Position numbers and translations under genes: made by a program
Shown here: positions 44,743 to 46,505 of the stretch, one piece after another
Numbering within the stretch: position 1 is the stretch's first letter
Layout of the letters: the number at the start of each line of letters is the position of its first letter
Notes under the pieces: model-generated
What the model saw: the letters and a program-made list of their open reading frames with translations, nothing else
Databases searched by the model: none
Told to the model about the DNA's origin: nothing
Assembly: GCA_026225415.1 (NCBI GenBank)
Contig: JAMFSS010000011.1
Coordinates: forward strand, 1-64,000
DNA: 64,000 nucleotides
Origin: Alphaproteobacteria bacterium
GTDB lineage: Bacteria > Pseudomonadota > Alphaproteobacteria > UBA9219
Direction: 5' to 3'

Positions 44743-45756
44743 TTAAATGGAAATATCCAATGAACCCGTCCGCCACATACGCTTGGGTTGCGGCCGCAGC
44801 GTCGCGATATCATCGGCCTGTTCCGCCAATCCGATCTTGTTGCGCCGCCAACATTTGCCGGGCGGGAAACGATAAATCAGGCTGGTGTTAATCGCATCGG
44901 GCGTTGGCTTGGTTTGCCCGACCAGATAGGAATTATATTCTTCCTGACCCGCCACGCAATTTTCCGGTTTGTATAATAAGGTGCTTAGGCCTTCCGCGCT
45001 GCGGATAATCGTCGTGGCGACAGTGTGCGATGTTTGCACGATGCGCATCACTATAGGGTCTTTTTTCTCAACAAGACTCGCGATAAAAACAATCGGGTGT
45101 GTGACGTAATCATGGTCTTCGCCCGCCTTGTGAATAAAATGAATTTGTTTATCCAATCCCGCATAGGCGGGGTTTGTCGCGGCCAGATGCAGCACAAGCT
45201 GACGCCCCAACTTACAAGCCTGTTCATCGCTATCGATACAAGTTACCTGCAAGCCTGTACGCCGGTGGAACATGATGGCGCTGATAGGTAACGCGCCCGC
45301 GCCCACAAATGCGACGCTTTCACGATCCGGTTTTAACGGCACCGCTTTGACATGCCATTTCATGGCATGCAGTTCGGCGGCGACCAGGGCTTCGTAATTA
45401 TCGCGATAGATAAAATTATCGTAAGATGAAAAACGGCTTTCGGCGCCGGGCTCCTTGCCCACCATAGCGCGCGCGCAATAACATTCCATTTCATATTCGC
45501 TGATGCTGAGCAACCGGCGCAGATCCGGCGCGATTTGTTTGATAACCGGCGCGCCGAGGATCGCGTGTGTTTCTTCGTGGCTGCGATGCCGCATCGTATT
45601 GCGCACAAAGCTGTGCAGCGTGGCGTTCAATTTGGCATTGTGTGGCGTGAAATCAGTCTGTTTCGTCAAAAAATTGTGGGTGTGCAACACATGGTCGATA
45701 TAGGCCCCCGCCCCTATTTGTTCGTGCAATTCGATGGCGCCGCTGATCGTGTTCAT
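44743..45756 (-). CDS. Nicotianamine-synthase-like / opine metallophore aminobutanoyltransferase-like protein
   Basis: EYEMECYCARAMVG...YDNFIYRDNYEALVAAEL; VAFVGAGALPISAIMFHRRTGLQVTCIDSDEQACKLGRQLV; ORF opens at TTG 45819 but ATG 45756 with AAAGGGA upstream preferred. Confidence 0.72.
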   Translation of the reverse strand: MNTISGAIELHEQIGAGAYIDHVLHTHNFLTKQTDFTPHNAKLNATLHSFVRNTMRHRSHEETHAILGAPVIKQIAPDLRRLLSISEYEMECYCARAMVGKEPGAESRFSSYDNFIYRDNYEALVAAELHAMKWHVKAVPLKPDRESVAFVGAGALPISAIMFHRRTGLQVTCIDSDEQACKLGRQLVLHLAATNPAYAGLDKQIHFIHKAGEDHDYVTHPIVFIASLVEKKDPIVMRIVQTSHTVATTIIRSAEGLSTLLYKPENCVAGQEEYNSYLVGQTKPTPDAINTSLIYRFPPGKCWRRNKIGLAEQADDIATLRPQPKRMWRTGSLDISI

Positions 45757-45810
45757 AAAGAAATCCCTTTGTTTGAAAGCCTGGGAATCTTCTTTAATCC
45801 ATTCTTTTTT

Positions 45811-45839
45811 TAATTGCAAATGATTCTTAATTGCAATTA
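45811..45839. promoter_or_regulatory. Fur/metalloregulator-like palindrome upstream of NAS-like gene
   Basis: taattgcaa-atgattcttaa-ttgcaatta (9-bp perfect arms). Confidence 0.5.
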
Positions 45840-45938: not shown

Positions 45939-46505
45939 TTAGGGCGTTGGTTCCGCCAGCAAAGATTCAATCTTATCGACCAAATCCACATCATCGGGTT
46001 TAGTGACGGAATGGAAATAATCGACCAGCTCGCCCTGACGGTTGATCAGATATTTATGGAAATTCCATTTCGGCGAACCGATCCAACCAACCTGCCCCCG
46101 CGCCCATTTATAAAACGGATGCGCGTTATCGCCGATCACATCTTCTTTCGATGCCATCGGAAAGCTGACGCCATAATTCAATTTGCAAAATCCGGCGATT
46201 TGTTCGCCCGAGCCCGGTTCCTGATTACCGAAATCATTGCTGGGCACGCCGACAATCACCAAACCTTGCGGCGCGTATTTTGTATAAAGTTTTTCCAACC
46301 CGTCATATTGGCCGGTAAAGCCACATTGTGACGCCGTGTTGACCACCAATATTACCTTGCCCTTAAACTGCGCCAGGGGAAGCTCGCCCCCGCCTTGCAA
46401 AGCATGAAAGGTAAAGTCATAAGCGGTTTGCGTTGTCTCGGCACGTGCGTTGAAACCCCAAATCATCAGAACCCCCACAAGGATAAGAACCAGAATTTTT
46501 GGCAT
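45939..46505 (-). CDS. Glutathione peroxidase family protein
   Basis: VNTASQCGFTGQYDGLEKLY, GVPSNDFGNQEPGS, PKWNFHKYLINRQGE; signal peptide. Confidence 0.93.
   Translation of the reverse strand: MPKILVLILVGVLMIWGFNARAETTQTAYDFTFHALQGGGELPLAQFKGKVILVVNTASQCGFTGQYDGLEKLYTKYAPQGLVIVGVPSNDFGNQEPGSGEQIAGFCKLNYGVSFPMASKEDVIGDNAHPFYKWARGQVGWIGSPKWNFHKYLINRQGELVDYFHSVTKPDDVDLVDKIESLLAEPTP

Follow-up and report, generated by a model that had tools for sequence, protein, structure and literature searches.

A gene of the nicotianamine synthase (NAS) family, here called nas, lies on the minus strand of the window, by which is meant the whole 64-kb stretch of alphaproteobacterial DNA that was analysed (Table 1). 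It is a real gene, read in a 358-aa open frame at 45819-44743 (-), and translation probably begins from the ATG at 45754-45756 (-), which gives a protein of 337 aa. In a Pfam profile search, residues 39-317 of the 358-aa frame matched PF03059 with 65.7 bits against a curated cut-off of 27.1 bits, so the NAS-like gene described in an earlier note on this DNA stands by the HMM check that was suggested for it there. The S-adenosylmethionine (SAM)-binding segment that the note had read as VAFVGAGALPISAIMF...IDSDEQA was found in the protein, and its glutamate-rich, YxNY-like region is present as YRDNY upstream of that segment. An AlphaFold2 model built from 15 sequences (pLDDT 84, pTM 0.83) has the predicted two-domain fold of NAS, with the archaeal enzyme MtNAS as its best match in the PDB (3fpe, E 2e-13, TM 0.83 by target length); the fold matches run from 3fpe/3fpg/3fpj to CntL (TM 0.72) and then to ordinary methyltransferases. 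This is the only NAS in the source genome (G000; 2.02 Mb, 11 contigs), and its G+C is ordinary for the 64-kb window. The next gene upstream, at 45939-46505 (-), codes for a glutathione peroxidase and is read in the same direction, and the product of the gene downstream matched no Pfam family above the cut-off. On reading the window, nothing that would encode a dehydrogenase, an exporter or a receptor was seen near nas, in agreement with the earlier statement that no CntM-type opine dehydrogenase or transporter is adjacent.

Table 1. Features of nas and its upstream region, in window coordinates
Feature	Position	Strand	Evidence
nas, NAS-family aminobutanoyl (3-amino-3-carboxypropyl) transferase, 337 aa	44743..45756	-	PF03059 profile and AlphaFold2 model
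SAM-binding glycine-rich segment VAFVGAGALPISAIM	45271..45315	-	alignments
codon Y121 (= AtNAS1 Y106, MtNAS Y107)	45394..45396	-	alignments
codons E87 (= AtNAS1 E73) to E91 (= AtNAS1 E77, MtNAS E81), motif EYEME	45484..45498	-	alignments
probable ribosome-binding site AAAGGG, 8 bases before nas ATG	45765..45770	-	sequence reading
palindrome TAATTGCAA-N11-TTGCAATTA	45811..45839	.	exact; sole match in window
Fur-box-like 19-mer GCAATTAAGAATCATTTGC	45816..45834	-	top window site by matrix from seven relatives

Alignments show that the catalytic glutamate and tyrosine of MtNAS and AtNAS1 are both kept in the window NAS, as E91 (E81/E77) and Y121 (Y107/Y106). E87, which corresponds to E73 of AtNAS1, is invariant in 15 NAS of the class and present in Halocatena NAS; its position is occupied by glycine in MtNAS and by a residue other than glutamate in both CntL proteins compared, and the equivalent of Y121 is missing from the two CntL proteins in the alignments. 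For MtNAS and S. aureus CntL the residues come from PDB structure alignments, and the numbering of the AtNAS1 sequence used agrees with that of a published study of the plant enzyme, in which mutation of E77 or Y106 abolished activity and E73 was also needed (PMC10248798). The window NAS, like MtNAS, lacks the product-linked VGMD motif, which lies near the reaction chamber of the plant enzyme (AtNAS1 206-209) and is required for its activity. Among NAS of the class a VGMD-like insert is carried only by those of the genomes G229 and G399. Since this motif is missing, nicotianamine itself is not assured as the product.

The earlier note had placed the protein close to CntL, a kinship that did not survive comparison. 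The CntL equivalog model NF033601 gave 34.8 bits against a cut-off of 350, and in a tree that included S. aureus CntL, Paenibacillus CntL, MtNAS, AtNAS1, Halocatena NAS and the window protein, a 100/99 branch sets the two CntL apart from all other NAS, while Y121 and E87 are plant-like and unlike CntL. Judged by its sequence, the window NAS falls outside the staphylopine (CntL) type. In the tree it pairs with the NAS of G031 (96/87, 47% identity), and no precise position within the non-CntL group is claimed because most of the deeper forks are weak. Among the phages and plasmids searched there was no close relative, and a single-protein scan of genome contigs returned no relatives.

A palindrome about 55 bp before the likely ATG had also been reported, and it was found exactly, with its end 54 bp from the nas start; no other match with up to 3 mismatches occurs in the window (0.03 expected). 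By itself the palindrome proves little, because about 0.24 chance inverted repeats of 9 bp at N11 spacing are expected per 64 kb by the analyst's estimate. That it is more than chance is argued by a symmetric Fur-type matrix, built from one site in each of seven relatives with the source-genome site left out, which ranks the 19-mer of Table 1 first in the 64-kb window. The source-genome site scored 19.1 versus 13.7 for the best control, and none of the 164 control promoters, which are the regions that precede other genes of the same loci, reached its score (0/164). When each relative was left out in turn, all seven NAS promoters also scored above the 164 controls, although these scores are somewhat favourable because the matrix sites were picked visually and as the closest fits to the E. 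coli consensus; the source-genome site played no part in the matrix, and its score is therefore not tied to the choice of sites in the same way. For G147, the matrix contains a box some 270 bp ahead of the start used, and the leave-one-out score of 14.2 belongs to a different site within 200 bp. The source-genome site agrees with the E. coli Fur consensus at 12 of 19 positions, a level reached by 23 of the 164 controls, for which reason calling the site on that consensus alone was rejected. The operators of G000 and G249, genomes of different orders, have the 17-mer ATTAAGAATCATTTGCA in common. In a promoter scan, no sigma-70-type match was returned for nas.

Given the boxes in seven other NAS promoters and the matrix ranking, the candidate site is very probably a Fur box, as the earlier note had proposed. 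A full-length Fur is encoded in the source genome at C6:181558 (127.6 bits in a profile search), with further Fur-family members at C2:55691 and C6:6744, the latter beside a TonB receptor gene. The operator recurs at C2:46474, where it precedes two genes, and another box is found 40 bp from it; these two Fur-type boxes (C2:46432-46494; L012:9934-9995) are upstream of a minus-strand gene pair whose products, of 134 and 553 aa, have no Pfam match, the 553-aa protein being Cys-rich at its C-terminus. Other genome matches to a loose Fur pattern fall mostly inside open frames.

Within the class, NAS matches were found in 15 of 386 genomes, within the order in 4 of 33 and within the genus in 1 of 10, the source genome counted. 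Fur-type boxes precede the NAS unit in 7 of 11 relatives of the class (G031, G029, G147, G249, G076, G132 and G081), with two boxes in G031 (GATAATAAGAATCATTATTATC and a second) and also two in G249. The four relatives in which no box was seen are G229 and G399, which have the plant-like forms with the insert, together with G211 and G018, and the Fur search did not find canonical Fur in G018. In G029, G031, G147 and G249 an orthologous class I methyltransferase (40-54% identity) is encoded directly beside NAS, and in G029, G147 and G249 the unit also includes a second, diverged NAS. One such second NAS, in G029 (L013:11361-12485), has the glycine motif VSSGSVP and an aspartate in place of the catalytic glutamate, and is probably altered or non-catalytic. 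The methyltransferase was considered as an obligate partner of NAS and rejected, as the source genome lacks it (best match 20 bits) and in five other genomes of the class it is found with no NAS, in unrelated contexts.

Several other genes were seen beside NAS in relatives. In three genomes NAS adjoins an M20 peptidase (DapE-like; L048:6946-9769, L043:8778-12974 and L046:2-2303), with a GNAT acetyltransferase also present at two of these three loci; an acetylated or deacylated NAS product is possible. A glutathione-synthetase-like ATP-grasp gene lies at most 10 bases 3' of NAS in G076 (L049:8811-10633), behind a Fur-type box, and in G031 a GshB gene is just upstream of the methyltransferase-NAS pair.

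The bacterial NAS-like enzymes characterised so far feed opine metallophores, and the search by which such pathways were mapped started from CntM, so that CntM-less pathways would escape it, as its authors point out (PMC7438024). Knowledge of NAS in bacteria was still described as scant in 2025 (PMC12454661). The NAS enzyme family and Fur control are each already known; no instance of the combination of Fur control, CntM-free NAS units and plant-like residues turned up in the literature searched, which was mostly non-subscription papers.

Taking as its basis the family, the predicted fold, the catalytic residues, the operator-like site in eight genomes, the Fur gene and the lack of an adjacent partner, all of which were observed, the explanation that we favour with moderate confidence is that nas is an iron-starvation-induced, Fur-controlled, stand-alone NAS that makes a nicotianamine-like chelator, probably without a CntM opine step. 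From these features we infer the product, the binding of Fur, the direction of control and the cellular role. In this model, Fur-Fe(II) would cover the operator under iron sufficiency and keep nas off, and lack of iron would release Fur and allow transcription. The enzyme would then move 3-amino-3-carboxypropyl units from S-adenosylmethionine to an amino acceptor, yielding a nicotianamine-like chelator and methylthioadenosine. The chelator would probably be used as a free nicotianamine-like ligand without the CntM step and, inside the cell or in its envelope, may buffer or carry divalent metals, Fe(II) among them, and relatives may modify it further via the methyltransferase and the second NAS. 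Synthesis of nicotianamine itself or of a new derivative, as raised in the earlier note, is kept as a possibility. The patchy occurrence of NAS in the genus (1/10) was counted against this explanation.

A quite different account would have nas serve a CntL-like opine metallophore pathway, with the dehydrogenase and transporters encoded elsewhere in the genome and the product secreted and taken up through TonB receptors. The superfamily and fold are indeed common to CntL and the window NAS, and the source genome has two TonB receptors, one of which adjoins the Fur-family (probably Zur) gene C6:6744; this receptor gene, directly 3' of the regulator (C6:4286-7256; L053), is a candidate zinc receptor. 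The score far under the CntL cut-off, the 100/99 branch, and Y121 and E87 argue against such a pathway, as does the search with PF10100 (CntM), which gave no match in six NAS-bearing genomes including the source genome, nor in any control genome, though the model does recognise a Paenibacillus CntM; in the known cluster of Paenibacillus, CntM is directly next to the CntL gene and follows it. The earlier note had proposed a check for TonB receptors with the same palindrome, and none was seen at the promoters that could be examined: no receptor has a Fur-type box where its promoter lies within the contig, the promoter of the C10 receptor being cut by the contig end. On this balance an opine pathway is very unlikely. 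We consider it more plausible, yet still unlikely, that the aminobutanoyl unit is passed to another acceptor (for example glutamate, as MtNAS does, or histidine or some other amine) and that the product has a purpose not centred on iron, such as protection against stress or the handling of zinc, nickel or copper. Acceptors do vary among NAS-like enzymes (PMC10248798), VGMD is missing as in MtNAS, and nas is preceded, on its own strand, by a glutathione peroxidase gene; against this, the Fur-type operator in eight genomes points to iron, and E87 matches plant NAS and not MtNAS.

That nas is a residual or horizontally acquired gene with no important role in the source species would fit its presence in 1 of 10 genus and 4 of 33 order genomes and the missing partner genes nearby, but is hard to reconcile with an intact open frame that has all catalytic residues and window-typical G+C, and with a conserved operator and ribosome-binding site of its own, and it appears the least probable of the readings considered here. 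Under the favoured reading of a Fur-controlled, stand-alone NAS, a ligand inside the cell or envelope is preferred over a secreted zincophore because no CntM was found in the search, itself lacking a positive control genome, because no receptor shares the operator where this could be tested, and because G031, whose NAS unit has two boxes, gave no TonB receptor match, which fits an intracellular role; this placement is the weakest step. A broader proposal, that NAS across several orders of the class form an opine-independent system, regulated by Fur in response to iron starvation, for plant-like nicotianamine or an N-methylated or extended derivative, serving as an intracellular iron carrier and not as a secreted zincophore, is possible but rather doubtful. 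It does seem probable, from the sequences compared, that some bacteria make a plant-like metal chelator when iron is short. If so, bacteria would use nicotianamine-like chelators for iron by way of Fur-controlled, apparently CntM-free NAS with plant-like active-site residues, the list of candidate microbial donors for the NAS of plants and fungi would grow, and the small cassettes with a methyltransferase and a second NAS could be a source of new metallophore chemistry.

Compared with known systems, the window NAS shares with CntL of the staphylopine/pseudopaline type its superfamily, its fold and presumably aminobutanoyl transfer from SAM, and differs in its score far under the CntL cut-off, its separate branch, the Y121 and E87 that CntL lacks, and a locus with no CntM, exporter or importer alongside. 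MtNAS, the archaeal thermonicotianamine synthase (3fpe), is the nearest solved fold, with E81 and Y107 kept and no VGMD insert in either protein, whereas identity in the structural match is 17% and glycine stands where the window NAS has E87. The orphan NAS on a Halocatena marina plasmid (L122) likewise has no opine dehydrogenase nearby and has the E..E and NY motifs, but is archaeal, 28% identical and has a VGG-type insert near the VGMD position. With the plant and fungal enzymes the window NAS has in common the NAS domain, E91/Y121 (E77/Y106 of AtNAS1), E87 (E73) and the lack of a dehydrogenase partner; unlike AtNAS1 it has neither the VGMD motif nor a C-terminus that closely matches the regulatory tail of the plant enzyme, and it is a bacterial enzyme encoded behind a Fur-type operator.
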